From Desulfosporosinus sp. (GTDB taxonomy: Bacteria > Bacillota > Desulfitobacteriia > Desulfitobacteriales > Desulfitobacteriaceae), in the NCBI GenBank assembly GCA_020692355.1, contig JAIMKP010000023.1, positions 1 to 46,478 of the forward strand: 46,478 nt of DNA, in the 5' to 3' direction. This document shows, piece after piece, positions 36,094-46,478 of this stretch. The notes beneath the pieces were generated by a model, which saw only the letters and a list, made by a program, of their open reading frames with translations, was not told the DNA's origin and ran no database searches. Both the position numbers and the translations under genes were made by a program. The stretch's first letter is position 1; each line of letters opens with the position of its first letter.

Positions 36094-36132
36094 ACTCAGA
36101 CCCCCAAAACTCTTCATTCACGCCATGGTTTC

Positions 36133-36205
36133 GTCTAACGTTCTGCGTATTCCCGGCGCGTCATACTACATCCATCTCGGCAAGTTTCGTAAATGCCCTG
36201 TTATC
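36133..36205. other. attC-like site 1 (right arm degenerate)
   Basis: Left end GTCTAAC (36133-36139) followed by GTTCTGCGTATTCCCGGCGCG-type sequence; right end GTTATC at 36200-36205. The left arm matches sites 2, 4 and 5, but the right arm no longer pairs with it. Read on the minus strand it ends GTTAGAC, a perfect GTTRRRY. It lies 12 bases after the stop of the Tam-like methyltransferase. Confidence 0.6.
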
Positions 36206-36217
36206 TTCTGTTGCGTC

Positions 36218-36997
36218 TTACTTTCTTGCAAAAACGTTTATCCGTCTAAAGGTTTCGAAGCAGGTTTCATCGGGTTGAGTGGTTATATCAATCATTTTTC
36301 GTACAACTTCGTTTCTGAACCCGGCCTTTTTTTCCTCGGGGAGGAACTTTAAGAATGGAACAATAGAAGGTTGATCAATCCACTTTACCATATCTTCTTT
36401 AGTACTAAAGTTTCTGTCAGCGTTTTCTTCCCAGACTCTTGATTCCCTAAACTCATATTGTTTGACCAGTTCCTCGTACTCATTATACCTTGGCATGTAC
36501 CAGGGCCATTCGAAGTTTTTGAAATACTCACTGTAAGTCGGATGATCCATTACCTTCCTAATAACCTCGTAGAAATTGGAACAGTTTCCGTCTCCAGCAA
36601 AATTAAAACGCACCACGCCACCTGGCTTCAGGGCTATGTGGCAACTATGTAAGAGCCTCTCATGGTTCCTAACCCAGTGTAGAGCAGCGTTTGAGAATAT
36701 CAAGTCGAACTCATTGGAAAAGGCCATGTCATTTATGTCTTGACAAGCAAAAGACAAATTATGTCCTTCTAGTTCTTTTGCTGTTTCAATCATTCCCACT
36801 GAGGCGTCGATTCCAAGGACCTTCCCTTCAGGAACCAAGTCAGCCAGCAGTTTTGTTAGTACACCATCACCGCAACCAAGATCAAGAATAGCTTCTGCTC
36901 CGGTAAAACTTAATTCGGCTACGATTCTGGTTCCCCACTCTTTCTGATGGCCGGAAGCGGACTTATACTTTTGGCCGTCAAACTCAAAATTCCCCAA
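36218..36997 (-). CDS. SAM-dependent methyltransferase (Tam-like), cassette gene
   Basis: A 259-residue class I methyltransferase. The SAM motif is ILDLGCGDGVLTKLLAD, with the ribose acidic residue in VLGIDASVGMIE. DLIFSNAALHWV and the C-terminal FETFRRINVFARK resemble trans-aconitate 2-methyltransferase. The true substrate is unknown. The start is TTG at 36997 with GGGAGAG upstream, 30 bases after attC-like site 2; the stop is 12 bases before site 1. AT-rich compared with the core. Confidence 0.85.
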   Translation of the reverse strand: MGNFEFDGQKYKSASGHQKEWGTRIVAELSFTGAEAILDLGCGDGVLTKLLADLVPEGKVLGIDASVGMIETAKELEGHNLSFACQDINDMAFSNEFDLIFSNAALHWVRNHERLLHSCHIALKPGGVVRFNFAGDGNCSNFYEVIRKVMDHPTYSEYFKNFEWPWYMPRYNEYEELVKQYEFRESRVWEENADRNFSTKEDMVKWIDQPSIVPFLKFLPEEKKAGFRNEVVRKMIDITTQPDETCFETFRRINVFARK

Positions 36998-37026
36998 ACT
37001 ATTTCTCTCCCTTTTCTAGCAATTCC

Positions 37027-37102
37027 AGATAACGTTTCGCGTATTCCCGACGCGTCCCAACCGCATGCATTATTACCAAGTGTTGGGAATACGCTGTTAT
37101 GC
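37027..37102. other. attC-like site 2
   Basis: Outer ends GATAAC (37028-37033) and GTTATGC (37096-37102). Arms GCGTATTCCCGAC (37039-37051) and GTTGGGAATACGC (37082-37094) pair at 12 of 13 positions around a loop of about 30 bases. The end spacers differ in length (6-7 versus 1-2 bases). It lies between two cassette genes on the minus strand. Confidence 0.75.
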
Positions 37103-37119
37103 GAAGTTGCTACACTAAA

Positions 37120-37743
37120 CTAATTTGCTAGTTCGAATACCCCATTTTGTTTGTTGTAAATATACACTTCACCAGTTTCGATAATGTAATACCAACCATC
37201 TATTGTAAGTGTTTGTTGTGTATACTTATCTCGAATAAATGGGTATGTTAGCAGGTGTTTAAGCTGTTCCACTACGTTAATTTGTTCTGTCATCCATTCC
37301 CGCTTACCTTTTTCGTCCTCTGTAACCTCAGCTAAAACTCTATTTTTAACGTTACCAGCCAACTCCAACCATTTCTTAGTATGCGGTATTGTGTCTAATT
37401 CCTCATCGGGTGAATATAGTGACTTACACCCCCCGCAGTTAGAGTGTCCGCACACAATAATATTCTGTACCTCAAGGACATTTACGGCGTATTCAATTGC
37501 CGCTGTAGTTGCCAAATACTCCTGAGTATTTCTATAAGGTGGAACAATGTTAGCAATGTTTCTTATTACGAATAATTCTCCGGGCAAGGTCTGAGTAATT
37601 AAATTTGGTACAAGTCTAGAATCGGAACACCCAATAAATAAAGTGTGGGGATTTTGTGACCTACTTAGTTTCCCAAAAAGTTCTCTGTGTACTTCGAAAT
37701 CGTTTTTTCTGAACTTAATTAGTCCTTGTAAAAGCTTCTCCAT
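37120..37743 (-). CDS. Beta-class carbonic anhydrase, cassette gene
   Basis: A 207-residue zinc enzyme interconverting CO2 and bicarbonate. The ligands are Cys39 and Asp41-Arg43 of GCSDSR, and His100 and Cys103 of CGHSNCGGC. ELFVIRNIANIVPP is the dimer-interface block. It is complete and of normal length. The ATG at 37743 has GAGGGTGG upstream. The stop is 17 bases before attC-like site 2, and the start is 55 bases after site 3. Confidence 0.95.
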   Translation of the reverse strand: MEKLLQGLIKFRKNDFEVHRELFGKLSRSQNPHTLFIGCSDSRLVPNLITQTLPGELFVIRNIANIVPPYRNTQEYLATTAAIEYAVNVLEVQNIIVCGHSNCGGCKSLYSPDEELDTIPHTKKWLELAGNVKNRVLAEVTEDEKGKREWMTEQINVVEQLKHLLTYPFIRDKYTQQTLTIDGWYYIIETGEVYIYNKQNGVFELAN

Positions 37744-37798
37744 AAATTTACCACCCTCAAACCATTATTCCCACTGTTCACTTGACTTTTGTAATTTC

Positions 37799-37876
37799 GT
37801 CTAACGTTCCGAGGGTTTGCGACGTCGGATTACTGCCCGAAATGTCATCTCCGATGTTGCAAACCCTTTGTTGTAC
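37799..37876. other. attC-like site 3 (divergent sequence, same architecture)
   Basis: GTCTAAC at 37799-37805 and GTTGTAC at 37870-37876. The arms GGGTTTGCGACGTCGG (37813-37828) and CCGATGTTGCAAACCC (37851-37866) pair at 14 of 16 positions. The arm sequence is unrelated to GCGTATTCCC of the other sites, but the ends, spacers and size are the same, so structure rather than sequence is conserved. Confidence 0.75.
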
Positions 37877-38017
37877 GAAGTGTCCAGCTCACAAAACCTT
37901 CTCGCACCAGACCACCCCTCAACTTCATTATATACCACATCATTCCATTCCTACATCTTCTAAGTGGGTAAACTGGGCATAATACTTATTGAATGAATGT
38001 TTAGAAGGTGATATGCT

Positions 38018-38218
38018 ATGGATAAAGAAGAAGATAACAAGATTAAGGAGGGGGACAACTTGAGCGCAGTTGCCAAAGAACAAGGTTATAGAAAATTGTC
38101 CTTATCCCCCAAAAAATTCCAGGAAATTACGGTTCGTCCGGTTATAATTAAAGATGGAAAACTATTATTTGACAAGACGAACAAGGATCATCGTTACATT
38201 GTTGAAGGAGAACAGTAA
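38018..38218 (+). CDS. Putative antitoxin paired with the PemK/MazF toxin
   Basis: A 66-residue charged protein (begins MDKEEDNKIKEGDNL, middle SLSPKKFQEITVRPVI) directly upstream of a PemK/MazF-like gene, 8 bases apart. No DNA-binding family is recognised with certainty; the role rests on position and size. AAGGTGAT lies 7 bases before the ATG. It is in the opposite orientation to most cassette genes, as toxin-antitoxin cassettes with their own promoter often are. Confidence 0.6.
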   Translation: MDKEEDNKIKEGDNLSAVAKEQGYRKLSLSPKKFQEITVRPVIIKDGKLLFDKTNKDHRYIVEGEQ

Positions 38219-38226
38219 AATCAGCA

Positions 38227-38592
38227 ATGTATGAGTTAACTTTAGGTGAGATTTTTTGGCTCGAGGTTGGATATCAGGACAATCCTAGTGAATCAAAAAT
38301 TAGACCTGCAATAATAGTGGCCGAAAAAGACAACTATCTACTAATGTTGGTTGCCACTACATCGGTACCGCCAAATGATCCACCCAAGTACTTTGATCAA
38401 TTTAAGATACCTATTCTTAATTGGCGTAGATCTGGGTTACTAAAACCTTCATGGGTTCAAGGCTTAAGACTAATCCATCTAACAAGAGAACAATTACGAG
38501 CTTTAGTTAGGGAAGAGGACTTTATTGGGCGTATGAACGAACAAGATTTTAATCATTTAGTTGGTGAAATCGAACGAATACATAATGGTTAG
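38227..38592 (+). CDS. PemK/MazF-family toxin
   Basis: A 121-residue protein with the MazF-like N-terminus (LGEIFWLEVGY, then KIRPAIIVAE), a central ATTS strand (LVATTSVPP) and a C-terminal helix (NHLVGEIERI). Family members are mRNA endoribonucleases inhibited by the partner protein. The basic WRRSGLLKPSWVQGLR segment may bind RNA. Its Shine-Dalgarno lies inside the antitoxin gene (GAAGGAG). A terminator follows at once. Toxin-antitoxin pairs are typical of large integron arrays. Confidence 0.75.
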   Translation: MYELTLGEIFWLEVGYQDNPSESKIRPAIIVAEKDNYLLMLVATTSVPPNDPPKYFDQFKIPILNWRRSGLLKPSWVQGLRLIHLTREQLRALVREEDFIGRMNEQDFNHLVGEIERIHNG

Positions 38593-38615: not shown

Positions 38616-38672
38616 ATTCGTCTCCAACCTACATATAGTTGACCCCAAACACAACTTCGAAATGGACATTTC

Positions 38673-38749
38673 AGCTAACGTCCCGTGTATTCCCGACGCG
38701 CCCCAACCGGCTTTCATCTATTCTAAGTGTTGGGAATACGCTGTTGTAC
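38673..38749. other. attC-like site 4
   Basis: AGCTAAC at 38673-38679 and GTTGTAC at 38743-38749. Arms TGTATTCCCGAC and GTTGGGAATACG pair around a loop of about 28 bases. It closes the toxin-antitoxin interval on one side and lies 18 bases past the stop of the next minus-strand methyltransferase. Confidence 0.75.
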
Positions 38750-38767
38750 TAAACCGCTGCACCCTAC

Positions 38768-39523
38768 TTAACTTTTAGTTGCTAAAATCTCAAAACGATA
38801 AGTTGTTATGTAATCATCCCCGAAAGGATAGCGAATTTTACATTCTTCAGATAGGCTACTGAGTATTCGAAAGATTTCTTCCCGACTGTTTTGGTCAGTC
38901 CCCATTCTGTCAAACCACTGTGGCAGCTCATACTGTTCCCTTAACAAAGAAGTTTGATCAATAGTTAAAGGTAGTTCCTTTAATAACTGATGCCATAAAC
39001 ATGGCGAATATGAACACTGGTGTAAACTATCTCTTAATAACTCGATACGATTAATTTCTTTTTCCGGCTCCACCCCATCGAAAACCGAGCAATCAAGAAT
39101 GTATAATTTCCCTCCAGGCTTTAATACCCTACACATTTCCTGAAGGGCTTTCTTTACATCGGAAAAATGATGGGCAGCAAATCTTGATGTAACAATGTCA
39201 AATTGGCAATCTGGAATATTTAAGTTGTGTACATCTTCCGCTCTAAACGTAATATTGCTGATATCTTCTAGACTTGATGCCTTTTCCGCCTCTGCCAACA
39301 TTTCCGGGGTAATATCAATCGCGACTACCTGTTCTACTCGTTTCGCTAACGAAATTGCGGTATGTCCCCCTCCTGTTGCAACGTCTAAAGCAGTCGCTTC
39401 TGAAGGAGGGTTTATAAGATTGATCATCCTTTCCAGATCTGTTGGATTACCGTGAGTAGAACTTAATCTGTATTCCGAAGCTCTTTGCCCAAAATTCTTT
39501 CGAACCTCATCCTAATTGCCCAC
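38768..39523 (-). pseudogene. UbiE-like SAM methyltransferase with an amber codon near the start
   Basis: A class I methyltransferase (ALDVATGGGHTAISLAK, ITPEMLAEAE, VLKPGGKLYILDC). The natural start appears to be GTG at 39523, preceded by GGGGAGGG, but codon 4 is TAG (39512-39514). After it the frame continues as DEVRKNFGQRASEYRLSS, a typical family N-terminus. Initiation at the ATG at 39427 would give a 219-residue protein lacking about 30 residues. It is flanked by attC-like sites 4 and 5. Confidence 0.75.
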
Positions 39524-39553
39524 CCAAATTTCCCTCCCCAAATTAGGCATGTC

Positions 39554-39627
39554 GCATAACGTTCTGCGTATTCCCAACGCGTCATTTCACATGCATACTA
39601 CCAAGTGTTGGGAATACGCTGTTATCT
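39554..39627. other. attC-like site 5 (best conserved)
   Basis: GCATAAC at 39554-39560 and GTTATCT at 39621-39627. Arms GCGTATTCCCAAC (39566-39578) and GTTGGGAATACGC (39607-39619) are perfectly complementary over 13 bp. Total length is 74 bases. The spacer between the outer AAC and the stem is 5 bases on the left and 1 on the right. Confidence 0.8.
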
Positions 39628-39678
39628 GATGCGGTCGCTCCCCAGAGAATGCTCCGACTGTACCACAGGTAATGGAAC

Positions 39679-40131
39679 CTACTTCTTGTGTAAACATATT
39701 AGCTGGGTGTGGTTCCAACTCATGCTTTTGTAGAATTCCAGAGCAGGTGTGTTGTTCCGGTCTGCGAGTAACTGTAAACGCTTTGTGCCTTTTTCAATTG
39801 CCCAATTTTCAAGAGACAATAGTAAGTCCCTTCCTATACCCTTTCGTCTATTCTCCTTGTCCACCACCAAATCTTCGACTAGAGCAACTGATCCGCCCTC
39901 AGAAGTGGATACCAAAATCTGAGCCGTGCACATTCCAATAATCTGTTGATTCATTGCCGCCACGATGATGCAGCGATTGGCGTAATCATCCAGCATCATT
40001 TCGAGACCCTTTCGCTGCTTTGATTCGTCGACTGAAAAATCCTTTTCTATTGAAAACAAGATTTTAAGTAACTCGATGAGCCTGGGAATGTCGGTGTGGT
40101 GAGCCCTTCTGATAATGTAGTTTGACGACAT
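39679..40131 (-). CDS. GNAT-family N-acetyltransferase, cassette gene
   Basis: A 150-residue acetyl-CoA-dependent transferase. The acetyl-CoA pyrophosphate motif appears as KENRRKGIGRDLL, preceded by VALVEDLVVD; the C-terminal strand has ALEFYKSMSW. The acceptor substrate is unknown. The ATG at 40131 has AGAGGG upstream. It ends 51 bases before attC-like site 5. Upstream of it (40132-40263) lies a fragment starting about MEHLVEKEFKSVAGNVNI on the minus strand that seems cut off by the IS91-type element, with no intact attC-like site. Confidence 0.85.
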   Translation of the reverse strand: MSSNYIIRRAHHTDIPRLIELLKILFSIEKDFSVDESKQRKGLEMMLDDYANRCIIVAAMNQQIIGMCTAQILVSTSEGGSVALVEDLVVDKENRRKGIGRDLLLSLENWAIEKGTKRLQLLADRNNTPALEFYKSMSWNHTQLICLHKK

Positions 40132-40263
40132 TTCTAAAAACCCTCTCTTTGTAACGAGACCAAAAACTATACTGATATAAAACACTTACACTGAAGATCA
40201 TAATAAAATTCTGCCCCGACATCTCAGCTACAGTAATATTAACATTTCCTGCAACGCTTTTAA

Positions 40264-40884
40264 ACTCTTTTTCAACAAGGTGCTCCATTACCACTGTCAG
40301 GCGACGTTATCATCCGGCCCAAAAGGCCTAAAAAGCTTCCCTGTGTTCTGTCTAAAAGCGAGATTCTGTCCCTTATTGCTCATGTAGATAATCTTAAGTA
40401 CAAGGTTATTCTCTTGACCACTTATTCTTCCGGGCTGCGTATTAGCGAAACGCTTTATCTCCGCGTCTCAGATATTGATTCAGTACGCATGATGATTAGA
40501 GTCAATCTTGGCAAAGGAAACAAAGATCGGTTAACTGTCCTGTCACTTGAAAACCTAAAAATGCTGAGGGCCTACTGGACACTTTATAGACCCACAGACC
40601 TGCTTTTTCCCGGACTGGTTCAAGGCAAACCCATTTCCGCAAGCAATATTCAACATGTCTTTCAAATCGCCAAAAACAAGGCCGGTATTTTAAAACCGGC
40701 TACGGTTCATACGCTTAGGTATAGTTTTGCTACCCATCTTCTTGACAATAAGACAGACCTTCGTACGATTCAGGTGCTCTTGGGACACAACGATATTTCC
40801 ACGACGGCTCTCTATACTCACCTTTCATCTCAACATATTGCCTCGGTGAGAAGTCCTCTCGACGGATGTGATCCGAATGCCTGA
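40264..40884 (+). pseudogene. Tyrosine recombinase, N-terminally truncated (IS91-associated)
   Basis: The frame is open from 40264 and reads RPKKLPCVLSKSEILSLI before YSSGLRISE, so it extends upstream of the TTG at 40414. The catalytic residues are present: Arg (GLRISE), HTLRYSFATHL, and GHNDISTTALYTH with the Tyr. The N-terminal core-binding domain is missing. It overlaps the IS91-type transposase by 17 bases, and such recombinases are known companions of IS91-like elements. It does not show features of an integron integrase. Confidence 0.8.
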
Positions 40885-41905
40885 ACTTCAGGATATCTTT
40901 AATCAGGTCCGTCTTGATGCGATGTCTCCGGCTCAGGCCAAAGCTTTTAATATGATTCGTCACTGTCGAACCGCAACCCTTGGTTATCATGCGGAAGTTT
41001 GCACGGAGTGCGGCTCGGTCGAGGTTTCTTACAACTCCTGCCGTAACCGGCATTGCCCCAAATGCCAACATGCTGTTCAAGAACAATGGGTTGAAGCTCA
41101 GATGTCCAAGCTGTTGCCGGTCGGCTATTTTCATGTCGTTTTTACGCTCCCCCAGGAACTGAATACCCTCGTTTTCCAAAATCAGAAGCTTCTCTATTCT
41201 ATCCTTATGCAAGCCGCAGGACAGACCTTGCTCGAACTGGCCAAAGACCCTAAATTTCTCGGCGCTACGATCGGAGTGACTTCTGTATTGCATACCTGGG
41301 GCCAGAATCTATCGTTTCATCCTCACGTTCACTGTATTGTTCCGGGCGGCGGCCTTGCCAACGATGGACTTCGCTTCGTCCATTCCAGGAAGAAGTTTTT
41401 TATCCCTGTGAAAGTGATTTCCAAAAAGTTCAGAGGTAAGTTCCTTTACCTTCTCAAGCAGGCCTACGACAAGGGGGAAATGGCCTTCTTTAACAAAGCG
41501 GCCAAACTTGCCTTCAAAAGTAACTTCCTTGCCCTTGTCGACCGTTTATACCGTACCCCCTGGGTGATCTTTGGCAAAAAACCATTCAAGTCTCCAGGGC
41601 ACGTCGTTCGTTATCTGGGGCGTTATACGCACAGAGCCGCGATTAGTAATTCTAGAATCCAGTCGTTTGACGGTCATTCGGTTAGTTTTTCCTGGAGGGA
41701 TTATAAAGACAACAGCCAATCCAAACTGATGACGCTGGATGCTGCTGAGTTTACCAGAAGGTTTCTGCTTCATGTCCTCCCAAATCGCTTTGTCAAGATC
41801 CGCCATTATGGCATCCTTTGCAGCCGGAATATCCATACGTTGCTTTTAAAATGCCTGATACTTGCCGGAAGCAGGCCCCTGACTCCTAACATTAAAAAAC
41901 AATAA
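40868..41905 (+). CDS. IS91-family (Y2 HUH) transposase
   Basis: About 342 residues. An N-terminal zinc motif (CTECGS, then CRNRHCPKCQ) is followed by the HUH motif HPHVHCIVPGGG and the Tyr region YLGRYTHRAAISNSRI. Members cut and ligate single-stranded DNA and move by rolling circle. The frame ends at TAA 41903-41905 just after an A6 run; the -1 frame continues KTCHACGSSDVVTHVFPK to 41979, so the C-terminal zinc knuckle is lost unless a shift occurs. ATG at 40877 or GTG at 40868. Confidence 0.9.
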   Translation: MIRMPELQDIFNQVRLDAMSPAQAKAFNMIRHCRTATLGYHAEVCTECGSVEVSYNSCRNRHCPKCQHAVQEQWVEAQMSKLLPVGYFHVVFTLPQELNTLVFQNQKLLYSILMQAAGQTLLELAKDPKFLGATIGVTSVLHTWGQNLSFHPHVHCIVPGGGLANDGLRFVHSRKKFFIPVKVISKKFRGKFLYLLKQAYDKGEMAFFNKAAKLAFKSNFLALVDRLYRTPWVIFGKKPFKSPGHVVRYLGRYTHRAAISNSRIQSFDGHSVSFSWRDYKDNSQSKLMTLDAAEFTRRFLLHVLPNRFVKIRHYGILCSRNIHTLLLKCLILAGSRPLTPNIKKQ

Positions 41906-42326
41906 AAACCTGTCATGCCTGTGGAAGCTCTGATGTTGTGACGCATGTTTTTCCTAAATATGCGTCTGCAAGTCCATAAACGTTTTGAAACTGAAGATCT
42001 ATTCAAACTGCCCCTCTTGGGGAGGGGGAAGGTCTATCCATTTTCGGGGTTTTACTTCATGCTTTTGATGAAGAAGCGATAAAATCTCGTTGAATCGTCC
42101 TTACCAAGAGAATTTTTGCCCCAATAGAACAGATTGAATTCCCATATAGACTGACTGTCTCTCGGCAACCGGTTTAGTACAACAACAGATTCATGATGTT
42201 CAGTATACTTCTTGGCGTGATTGCTCTTTTTAAAGCCACTGATTTTGATCACTGGCTTTTTCTGTATCTAGGAACATCATAAATCTCTATTAATTATACG
42301 CCGTGACCGTCTCTACTCATTGTGTC

Positions 42327-43795: not shown

Positions 43796-44209
43796 CTAAG
43801 GCCTTAGGATTGCCAAAATCACTGGAATAATCATACAAAACGTCAAAACTGACCCATTGTTTACTAAATATATAGGGGAAAAATCAGGAATAGGAACACC
43901 TGAAGTTACATTTACCGGAAACCAAAAAGAAAAAACCGCCATAGGTACTACCCACCAGTTTCCTCGAGATATTTTCTTAAACGTAAAGTGATTTTTGCAC
44001 ACTACTAGTTCCCATACCCAAAATAAAGCTACTATTGTCATAACAATTAGGTTACCCGTAAGAACAGCAAAGCCATAGTCACTAGTTATTGCCGAATTCT
44101 GGAATATTGCAATTGCAAGAAGGATAATTACAACATATGTAGAAAAAATCCGATATCTTGTAACAAAATTGCCTGATAAGAATATACCTGCCACCAACGC
44201 GATTGTCAT
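43796..44209 (-). CDS. Small polytopic membrane protein, cassette gene
   Basis: About 137 residues with four or five membrane helices (TIALVAGIFLSG, VVIILLAIAIF, LIVMTIVALFWVWELVV, MAVFSFWFPV, CMIIPVILAIL). No family recognised. The ATG at 44209 coincides with the end of attC-like site 6 (GTTAATG on the minus strand), so the start codon and the site overlap; a longer start inside the site (to 44251) is less likely. Confidence 0.6.
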   Translation of the reverse strand: MTIALVAGIFLSGNFVTRYRIFSTYVVIILLAIAIFQNSAITSDYGFAVLTGNLIVMTIVALFWVWELVVCKNHFTFKKISRGNWWVVPMAVFSFWFPVNVTSGVPIPDFSPIYLVNNGSVLTFCMIIPVILAILRP

Positions 44210-44274
44210 TAACTTTTCCCGACGCGCCCAAACAACTTTCATCTTTTCCAAGTGTCGGGAATTCTCTGTTATAT
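44207..44274. other. attC-like site 6 (left arm partly deleted)
   Basis: ATTAAC (44208-44213) and GTTATAT (44268-44274) bound a shortened version of the repeat. CCCGAC (44218-44223) pairs with GTCGGG (44254-44259), and the loop keeps the CTTTCATC...CCAAG pattern of site 4. About 8 to 10 bases between TAAC and the stem are missing. Confidence 0.55.
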
Positions 44275-44300
44275 GACGTGTCCACCTTCGAAGGCCATCC

Positions 44301-44351: not shown

Positions 44352-45737
44352 TTGAAGAACAAGCTTTATTATGGGGATAATCTCGTAATTTTGGGCCAAT
44401 TAGAGGATAACTCTATCGACTTGGTTTATCTTGATCCACCTTTTAACAGTAATAAAAACTACAATTTACTATTTACAAATGAAACTGGCCGTGTATCCGA
44501 TGCCCAAAGACATGCTTTTGATGACACCTGGGAATGGGGATTAGAATCCGAGAAGACTTGGGTCAATATTGTAGAAACATACGACCCGAATATTGTCAAT
44601 TTGTTAGCAGCGTTAAGGCAACATCTTGGTTCGAGTAGCGTAATGGCATACCTTGTAATGATGACACCCCGCTTAAAAGAACTCCATAGGGTACTTAAAC
44701 CTACAGGATCCATCTTCCTCCATTGTGACCCTACCTCTAGCCATTATTTGAAACTATTAATGGACTGTATTTTCTCCCCATCCAACTTCCGAAATGAAAT
44801 TATTTGGTGTTATAGACAAGGTGGTCGGGGTTCTAAACACTTTGCTAGAAAGCATGACACTATATTTTTCTACTCCAAGTCAAACAATTGGACGTTTGAA
44901 GTTAATTCAATTCGAATCCCGTATCACGGAACTGGGGGCTATCAAACAAGTGGCCGGGGTATTAGAAGCAAAAATGGACGTACATACCATCCTCATCCGG
45001 AAGGGAAAATTCCTGAAGATTGGTGGGATATCCCTGCTATTCCGCCTATGTCAAAAGAGAGAATTGGATACCCAACTCAGAAACCGTTAGAGTTGCTTGA
45101 AAGGATTATTCAAGCATGTTCAATGGATGGGCAAGTTGTTTTAGATCCTTTCAGTGGTTGTGGTACTGCCATCGTTGCTTCCGAAAAGTTAAACCGCCGC
45201 TGGATCGGAATTGATATTACTCATCTTGCCATAACATTGGTAAGAACACGTCTTGAGCAATATTTCGGACCACGTCTACACGAATTTGATATTTTGGGAG
45301 CTCCAGTTGATTTGGAAGGAGCTATTTCGTTAGCAAATCAAGATCGCTACCAATTCCAATGGTGGGCATTAGGCTTAATAGGTGCCCGCCCCTTCGAGGA
45401 AAAACGGAAAGGCCCCGACGGTGGTGTCGACGGCTATATTTATTTTAATTATGAACTCCGCTCTTCACATATCGGTAAAATCATAGTACAAGTGAAAAGT
45501 GGAAAAGTATCTGTAACTACTATTAGGGAACTTGCCAGTGTCAGGAGAAGCCAAAAGGCTGAAATTGGCATTCTTCTTACCTTAGAACCACCAACCTCAA
45601 ACATGTTAAAAGAAGCCGCATGCGAAGGAATGTTTACTTGCTTACTCGATGGAAACCGATACCCAATAATCCAAATTATTACTATAGAACAAGCCATTAA
45701 CGGCCAATCTGTTTTATACCCTAAGATATATGTATAA
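44352..45737 (+). CDS. DNA methyltransferase fused to an Mrr-like nuclease domain
   Basis: A 461-residue protein. Residues 1 to about 310 form a beta-class amino methyltransferase, with the catalytic motif first (LVYLDPPFNS) and the SAM motif later (VVLDPFSGCGTAIVA). Residues about 340-430 carry GGVDGYIYF, then IIVQVKSGKVS, the GxDG...QxK pattern of PD-(D/E)XK Mrr-like endonucleases. So modification and cleavage may be joined in one chain. The start is TTG at 44352 with AGGGATAAG. It is oriented opposite to most cassette genes and ends 13 bases before attC-like site 7. Confidence 0.85.
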   Translation: MKNKLYYGDNLVILGQLEDNSIDLVYLDPPFNSNKNYNLLFTNETGRVSDAQRHAFDDTWEWGLESEKTWVNIVETYDPNIVNLLAALRQHLGSSSVMAYLVMMTPRLKELHRVLKPTGSIFLHCDPTSSHYLKLLMDCIFSPSNFRNEIIWCYRQGGRGSKHFARKHDTIFFYSKSNNWTFEVNSIRIPYHGTGGYQTSGRGIRSKNGRTYHPHPEGKIPEDWWDIPAIPPMSKERIGYPTQKPLELLERIIQACSMDGQVVLDPFSGCGTAIVASEKLNRRWIGIDITHLAITLVRTRLEQYFGPRLHEFDILGAPVDLEGAISLANQDRYQFQWWALGLIGARPFEEKRKGPDGGVDGYIYFNYELRSSHIGKIIVQVKSGKVSVTTIRELASVRRSQKAEIGILLTLEPPTSNMLKEAACEGMFTCLLDGNRYPIIQIITIEQAINGQSVLYPKIYV

Positions 45738-45750
45738 CCGTGGACATGTC

Positions 45751-45774
45751 ATATAACGTTGTGCGTATTTCCCC
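45751..45774. other. attC-like site 7, left half only
   Basis: ATATAACGTTGTGCGTATTT matches the left end of sites 1-5, then the similarity stops at the edge of an IS3-type element. The right half is missing from the window and was probably displaced by the insertion. Confidence 0.6.
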
Positions 45775-45849
45775 CTGTGTTAGCATAGTTGTCATAGGAC
45801 TCCAAGAGAAGTATAGTGAGCTAATAAGAAGACTCAGAGGAGGAGACCC

Positions 45850-46338
45850 ATGGCAAAATACAGTGAAGAGTTTAAGTACTCGATCATCATGAAAATGATG
45901 CCGCCGCAGAATCAAGCGGTAAGTATGATAGCTAGAGAAACTGGGCTTTCGGAAGGAACCCTGCATCAGTGGCGGAAACAAGCCAGAGCGAAGGGATTTG
46001 CTGTTCCTAAAGAGGTTGAGCGCTGGAGCACTCAGGATAAGTTCCTGATCGTCGTGGAGACATCTCATCTTAGCGAAGTTGAGTTGGCTGAGTACTGTCG
46101 CAGTAAAGGGCTTTATGTTGAACAGGTTCAGGCCTGGCGTGACGCTTGCATGCAGGCCAATGGCGGTGTTGCGCAGCAAGCCTCACGCCTACAGAAAGAT
46201 TTACGTGATAAGGAGCGTGAAATCAAAAAGTTAGCGCAAGAACTTCGTCGAAAAGAGGCAGCGCTAGCAGAAACAGCGGCTCTATTGGTTCTAAGAAAAA
46301 AAGCCCTTGCGATTTGGGGGGACGGCGAGGACGCTTGA
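45850..46338 (+). CDS. IS3-family transposase OrfA
   Basis: A 162-residue DNA-binding protein. An N-terminal helix-turn-helix (about residues 1-50, VSMIARETGLSEGTLHQW) and a second helical domain (LSEVELAEYCRSKGLYVE) are followed by a coiled coil (KDLRDKEREIKKLAQELR). This matches the long-form OrfA of some IS3 elements. The ATG follows AGAGGAGGAGACCC. The end overlaps orfB (TTGA), which allows coupled translation of the catalytic part. Confidence 0.85.
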   Translation: MAKYSEEFKYSIIMKMMPPQNQAVSMIARETGLSEGTLHQWRKQARAKGFAVPKEVERWSTQDKFLIVVETSHLSEVELAEYCRSKGLYVEQVQAWRDACMQANGGVAQQASRLQKDLRDKEREIKKLAQELRRKEAALAETAALLVLRKKALAIWGDGEDA

Positions 46339-46478
46339 TCAGCGCCTCAGATCGCAACAACGCCATAATGCTGATTGAAGAAGCCACTCAGGCCGGGACC
46401 CGGGAGAAGATGGCTTGCAAAGAAATGGGGATAAGTCTTCGTACGTTGCAGCGTTGGCGAAGTGATGCAGCACCTTTC
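46335..46478 (+). CDS. IS3-family transposase OrfB, 5' part
   Basis: A TTG start at 46335 overlaps the orfA stop by 4 bases. The first 48 residues (ISASDRNNAIMLIEEATQAG, then KEMGISLRTLQRW) form the helix-turn-helix that precedes the DDE domain, which lies beyond the window end. Confidence 0.75.
   Translation, partial: MISASDRNNAIMLIEEATQAGTREKMACKEMGISLRTLQRWRSDAAPF

Follow-up and report, generated by a model that had tools for sequence, protein, structure and literature searches.

A toxin-antitoxin cassette boundary in Desulfosporosinus is an attC-type site in an integron-like system with a candidate XerA-like integrase

The described systems closest to the locus examined here are the integrons. 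The IntI-specific domain of their integrases has been described as defining and necessary, and IntegronFinder recognizes IntI by it (PMC9668308); an earlier classification reported incomplete conservation of the insertion within its integron-like subgroup (PMC8138268). Classical integrases grip extrahelical bases of attC, and cassette deletion by IntI1 and VchIntIA needs these bases, with IntI1 deletion abolished when they were absent from both sites (PMC2727003). Apart from a few CALINs, IntegronFinder 2.0 returned one complete integron in Firmicutes (PMC9024848).

The DNA analysed, hereafter the window, is a stretch of 46,478 nucleotides from Desulfosporosinus sp. (contig JAIMKP010000023.1). 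The system to which it belongs shares with integrons attC-like imperfect palindromes with AAC/GTT boundaries, covarying arms and a bias toward the bottom-strand fold, single-gene cassettes mostly in one orientation, cassette-sized indels, toxin-antitoxin cassettes, and an attI-like site beside a tyrosine recombinase. It differs in a putative integrase that lacks the IntI-specific domain and carries an extra N-terminal domain, in attC stems without conserved extrahelical bases, and in an attI-like site with two palindromic boxes. Because features that define integrons are missing, it is filed here as an integron-like variant and not as a canonical integron. On its own the window contig would be named a CALIN, but related arrays have a linked, different integrase. 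The chromosomal integrons of Treponema have a canonical IntI, specific domain included, whereas the array integrase here is without it. As in Treponema, the integrase gene is read toward the attI site and cassettes and not divergently from them (PMC3607928). In the open-access literature on integrons of Desulfosporosinus, Desulfitobacterium or Bacteroidota, no account of a domain-less integrase was found.

Site 3 and the cassette array

The array runs in the order methyltransferase, carbonic anhydrase, toxin-antitoxin (reversed), methyltransferase, GNAT acetyltransferase, IS91 insertion, HD-domain gene and DNA methylase (reversed), with most genes on the − strand. The attC of every unit is situated left of the gene, which assigns site 3 to the toxin-antitoxin unit. 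The features are as follows.

36131–36208, + strand: terminal attC, an apparent chimera of two stem types (46.2 bits; no fold, z −0.36)
36218–36997, − strand: first methyltransferase cassette gene
37025–37104, + strand: attC of the carbonic-anhydrase cassette (81.2 bits)
37120–37743, − strand: beta-carbonic anhydrase cassette gene (Pro_CA, 1.8e-49; the 772-bp cassette is 37030–37801)
37797–37878, + strand (the cassette bottom strand is the window + strand): site 3, attC-type site of the toxin-antitoxin cassette (62.3 bits, model R1)
37802–37808, + strand: TAACGTT, probable crossover segment (R' box GTTAGAC on the − strand), with the window/G040 breakpoint inside it
37811–37829, + strand: 5' arm of the site-3 stem, GAGGGTTTGCGACGTCGGA
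37850–37868, + strand: 3' arm of the site-3 stem, TCCGATGTTGCAAACCCTT, pairing with GAGGGTTTGCGACGTCGGA
38018–38218, + strand: 66-aa ORF in the antitoxin position, directly upstream of the toxin and reversed relative to its attC
38227–38592, + strand: PemK/MazF-like toxin of the site-3 cassette (Pfam PemK_toxin, 3.3e-5)
38671–38751, + strand: attC of the second methyltransferase cassette (68.5 bits)
38768–39427, − strand: second methyltransferase cassette gene
39552–39629, + strand: attC of the GNAT acetyltransferase cassette (77.4 bits)
39679–40185, − strand: GNAT acetyltransferase cassette gene
40207–41905, + strand: insertion of the IS91 family, carrying a truncated accessory tyrosine recombinase
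44206–44276, + strand: decayed attC of the reversed methylase cassette (45.5 bits)
44352–45737, + strand: cassette gene for a DNA adenine methylase, in reverse orientation to its attC
45750–45776, + strand: left part of an attC, then an insertion with a transposase-like gene next

With its R arms, site 3 spans 37797–37878. Its + strand folds into a 19-pair stem at −17.5 kcal/mol, against a mean of −8.5 kcal/mol for shuffled sequences, and none of 200 shuffles folded as well; the − strand fold is weaker (−14.0 kcal/mol). The hairpin with array architecture that the original prediction placed at 37799–37876 is thereby confirmed, and the flanks said to be kept, TAACGTT on the left and GTT on the right, are found at the other sites too. 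That prediction also gave the other sites of the window a single shared stem, which is true of those at 37025, 38671 and 39552, with paired GCGTATTCCC-type stems, but not of those at 36131 (non-pairing), 44206 (decayed) and 45750 (cut). The wholly different stem ascribed to site 3 is unique in type within the window but ordinary across related genomes, where the inner stem type recurs in 32 of 163 collected sites and the GGGTTTGC outer stem in 35 of 163. An Rfam scan of the site-3 region gave no match to curated RNA families.

Several smaller observations concern the rest of the array. At 36131–36208 the left arm is GCGTATTCCC and the right arm belongs to another stem type (TTTCGTAAATGCCC), so that the arms do not pair; the same chimera is present in the sister genome, G040. 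The 66-aa ORF had no matches in Pfam, NCBIfam or PADLOC. Between the IS91 insertion and the HD-domain gene, 42170–42192 is an inverted copy (87%) of the attC-adjacent segment 38734–38756 and may be an attC remnant. The ends of the reversed methylase cassette (44268–44285 and 45740–45757) are complementary over 18 nt (94%), as expected if an excised circle restores attC. Transposase-like genes occupy 45777–46478, after the attC that is cut at approximately 45776, and reach the contig end. Elsewhere in the same genome, a lone attC with a GNAT cassette can be found (contig G000:C80; L032, 9732–9811).

Comparison with G040 captured differences in cassette content. Site 3 is 100% identical there from TAAC onward and the toxin-antitoxin cassette 97.7% identical, and the 772-bp carbonic-anhydrase cassette (37030–37801) is precisely absent, the methyltransferase flank running straight into site 3. 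The G040 junction falls within the TAACGTT of site 3 and forms a clean three-way junction with the window. As read from the aligned sequences, this clean indel is a signature of cassette recombination at site 3. G040 also differs in having an additional GNAT cassette; here the break lies a few bases to the left of TAAC, off the crossover, and may reflect homologous exchange or mutation; some cassette changes could likewise be explained by homologous recombination between similar sites. At the toxin cassette start (38655–38676) the window reads ATTTCAGCTAAC and G040 ATTTCGTTAAC, the latter fitting the cassette's own R'' arm better. The IS91 end in G040 (L099, 1–196) abuts position 38888 and not 40220, the DNA between being missing there, as in a one-ended deletion.

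Conservation of fold, stem types and the origin of site 3

Sites were collected from related genomes with a strict hairpin finder and a covariance model, a cruder first finder having been dropped for its many chance matches. The covariance model located sites in 57 of the 74 genomes of the order, with up to approximately 60 per genome. Among 398 evenly drawn Bacillota, 25 contained sites, 12 of these being from the window's own order.

Sixty sites from related genomes, chosen for diversity, were aligned by structure and examined for covariation. The stems vary widely, with 45 different words among the 60 sites. In the named structure 84.9% of cells are paired, against 69.1% in shuffles, and paired double changes number 255, against 94.7. 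The covariation score is 0.419, against 0.153; none of 500 shuffles attained any of these values, and slid controls gave a score of 0.087 at most. These values strongly support the earlier claim that fold is conserved over sequence. The central spacer between the R and L boxes is unpaired and asymmetric, with 4–6 nt on the left and 2 nt on the right. On the bottom strand, one G·T pair is kept in 58 of the 60 sites, and with this near-invariant pair left out there are 51 G·T wobbles against 6 A·C mismatches. Wobbles on one strand are mismatches on the other, so selection acts on the fold of the cassette bottom strand; a bottom-strand fold of attC is likewise favoured in integrons (PMC2727003). 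Together, the covariation and the wobble bias support the idea of a recombinase that reads single-stranded hairpins.

Three recurrent stem types, that of site 3 included, are interleaved within arrays across the order. This bears directly on whether the boundary came from another host or array, as first proposed. Site 3 is alone of its type in the window and its inner stem type is common in a sister genus, both of which would suit a foreign origin; against this, most arrays have mixed stem types, the sister species carries the same cassette and site, and the nearest toxin homologues have different sites. A DNA search with site 3 gave matches in 28 of 74 genomes but yielded no direct donor array, and none of the 74 contained a near-identical copy outside the genus. 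The nearest homologous toxin cassettes, from another genus (75–82% aa), include two with a GAGGGTTTGC outer stem and a different inner part, and a third (80%) has an altogether different stem. As homologous toxin cassettes carry various attC types, no donor can be named, and a foreign source for site 3 seems doubtful. The notion that a site type is tied to the toxin gene was rejected on the same variety of attC types.

A dispersed transposable hairpin, such as a REP/MITE or an IS end with its own transposase, would also be repeated in many genomes, as this element is, and insertion sequences do lie nearby. The site-3-type repeats are nevertheless found at the boundaries of single-gene cassettes in mixed arrays, have the same R boxes as the other stem types and fit one structural model together with them, have no Rfam match and have no transposase linked to them. 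An unrelated dispersed family with its own transposase, the finding that was to speak against the original prediction, was thus looked for and is absent, and we regard this explanation as scarcely credible. In these Gram-positive bacteria site 3 is one ordinary boundary site among the cassettes of a large integron-type gene-shuffling system.

The recombinase linked to the arrays

No IntI scoring over the TIGR02249 cut-off was detected in the 74 genomes of the order or in 83 of the class, true IntIs scoring 400–454 bits in the same search as a positive control. Directly upstream of the arrays, a family of XerA-like tyrosine recombinases of approximately 360 residues was found instead. For array recombinases at ≥50% identity, an attC was present ≤1.5 kb downstream in 10 of the 12 loci with enough contig; several further loci end at contig breaks and are outside the 12 counted. 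The gene is transcribed toward the cassettes, and right after its stop codon stands a conserved attI-like element (two palindromic boxes, then GACGTTA) followed by the first cassette, giving the order recombinase, attI-like element, array. In G004 (L096, 9978–10319) the first cassette behind a frameshifted integrase is likewise a reversed ORF for a PemK-like toxin. In the window's own genome the recombinase gene, a candidate integrase gene for the window's array, is found on a different contig, C56, whose end falls within the attI-like element. This copy reads TAG in its N-terminal part where the sister has TGG and, with a stop in the frame of the N-terminal domain, may be inactive.

The spacing from GLR to HxLRH is 91–92 residues in the array recombinases and 127–133 in IntI, from which it follows that the IntI-specific domain of approximately 41 residues is missing. 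Core fold and spacing (91–92) are those of XerA/Xer proteins, with PDB 5hxy and 4a8e among the best matches, but the array recombinases differ from these in their linkage to an attI-like site and cassette arrays, in the extra N-terminal domain and in an IntI-like RSPLD tail. In a phylogenetic tree the IntIs group in a single clade (100/99) that excludes the array integrases, and the accessory recombinases of IS91 elements form a separate clade (98/95) that includes the window's. The tyrosine recombinase at 40207–40884 of the window was accordingly rejected as the array integrase; it is a truncated IS91 accessory gene.

The separate clade also weighs against the array recombinase being itself no more than an accessory to array-targeting elements of the IS91 type. 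IS91 does have a related recombinase beside it in the window and in G018, but the examined array integrases have the attI-like element and then cassettes downstream of them, and in G018, the sole genome with IS91 beside an array integrase, the insertion sequence has a second recombinase of its own. Such an accessory role is considered highly unlikely.

Among attC sites identified in part by the pairing of their stems, no conserved extrahelical base could be seen: 5 of the 60 aligned ones have an inserted base, and 52 of 171 show a gap when the gap penalty is lenient. The missing IntI-specific domain and the missing conserved bulges agree. The N-terminal domain of the recombinase resembles Pfam HARP weakly, with 7 of 18 members matching (best 2.4e-4), and shows weak sequence likeness to SMARCAL1 4o66 (E 0.047). 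Its structural model (pLDDT 89.5) comes nearest in fold to T4 UvsW (Z 6.9) and XPB (Z 6.4), followed by SMARCAL1 HARP (Z 4.2), all below 8, a level at which likeness can reflect a common arrangement. HARP, UvsW and XPB are all from helicases that handle branched or damaged DNA, whereas here the domain is attached to a recombinase. It may recognize the folded site. Domain positions from a full-length model (pTM 0.54) were left unused because of its low confidence.

Relatives of the array recombinase were found in Bacteroidota and elsewhere, through a named scan and one plasmid record. The strict hairpin search recovered 31 attC-like sites in 14 of 51 loci, among them loci from Rufibacter, Flavobacterium, Algibacter and a Chryseobacterium plasmid. 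All 31 lie downstream of the recombinase, in the same sense as in Bacillota, and none upstream. The remaining loci, many with a short downstream stretch or from other recombinase branches, gave no site in this search.

The array could alternatively be an ordinary integron remnant (CALIN), with a canonical IntI that was lost or acts in trans and an adjoining recombinase that is unrelated. The window contig itself carries no integrase, no IntI over the cut-off is present in the 83 genomes of the class, and CALINs have been reported in Firmicutes (PMC9024848), all of which would fit. A remnant does not explain why one recombinase family and an attI-like element stand at the array start, in one orientation, across many genera and in Bacteroidota, nor why the attC sites are without the extrahelical bases on which deletion by IntI1 and VchIntIA depends (PMC2727003), and this reading is judged improbable.

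We therefore favour, with a probability of roughly 0.8, the reading in which a mobile toxin-antitoxin cassette has site 3 as its attC-type site and is recombined as a hairpin by a XerA-like array integrase that is not an IntI. The tyrosine recombinase would fold or capture the bottom strand of the cassette (the window + strand) as a hairpin and exchange it at the TAAC/GTT boundary, leaving the letters of the stem free to drift provided that both arms change together. The enzyme would be the XerA-like array integrase with a HARP/UvsW/XPB-like domain at its N terminus in place of any IntI-specific domain, encoded just upstream of the attI-like element and transcribed toward the cassettes. The linked recombinase presumably carries out the recombination, and its N-terminal domain would take over the recognition of DNA structure.

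Implications for integron diversity

Integrons are defined and detected by an IntI with the extra domain, and arrays of the present kind are consequently filed as integrase-less or missed. The evidence fits a domain-less integron lineage overlooked, or filed as integrase-less, by integron finders. Somewhat less firmly, the arrays of Bacillota and Bacteroidota probably represent a second lineage of working integrons, in which a XerA-like integrase with a helicase-type N-terminal domain and bulge-free attC hairpins replace the IntI-specific domain and the extrahelical bases. Should the linked recombinase act on the arrays, integrons would reach well into the genomes of Gram-positive bacteria and Bacteroidota. 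What the IntI domain and the bulged bases each do in single-strand recombination could then be tested by comparing two independent solutions.
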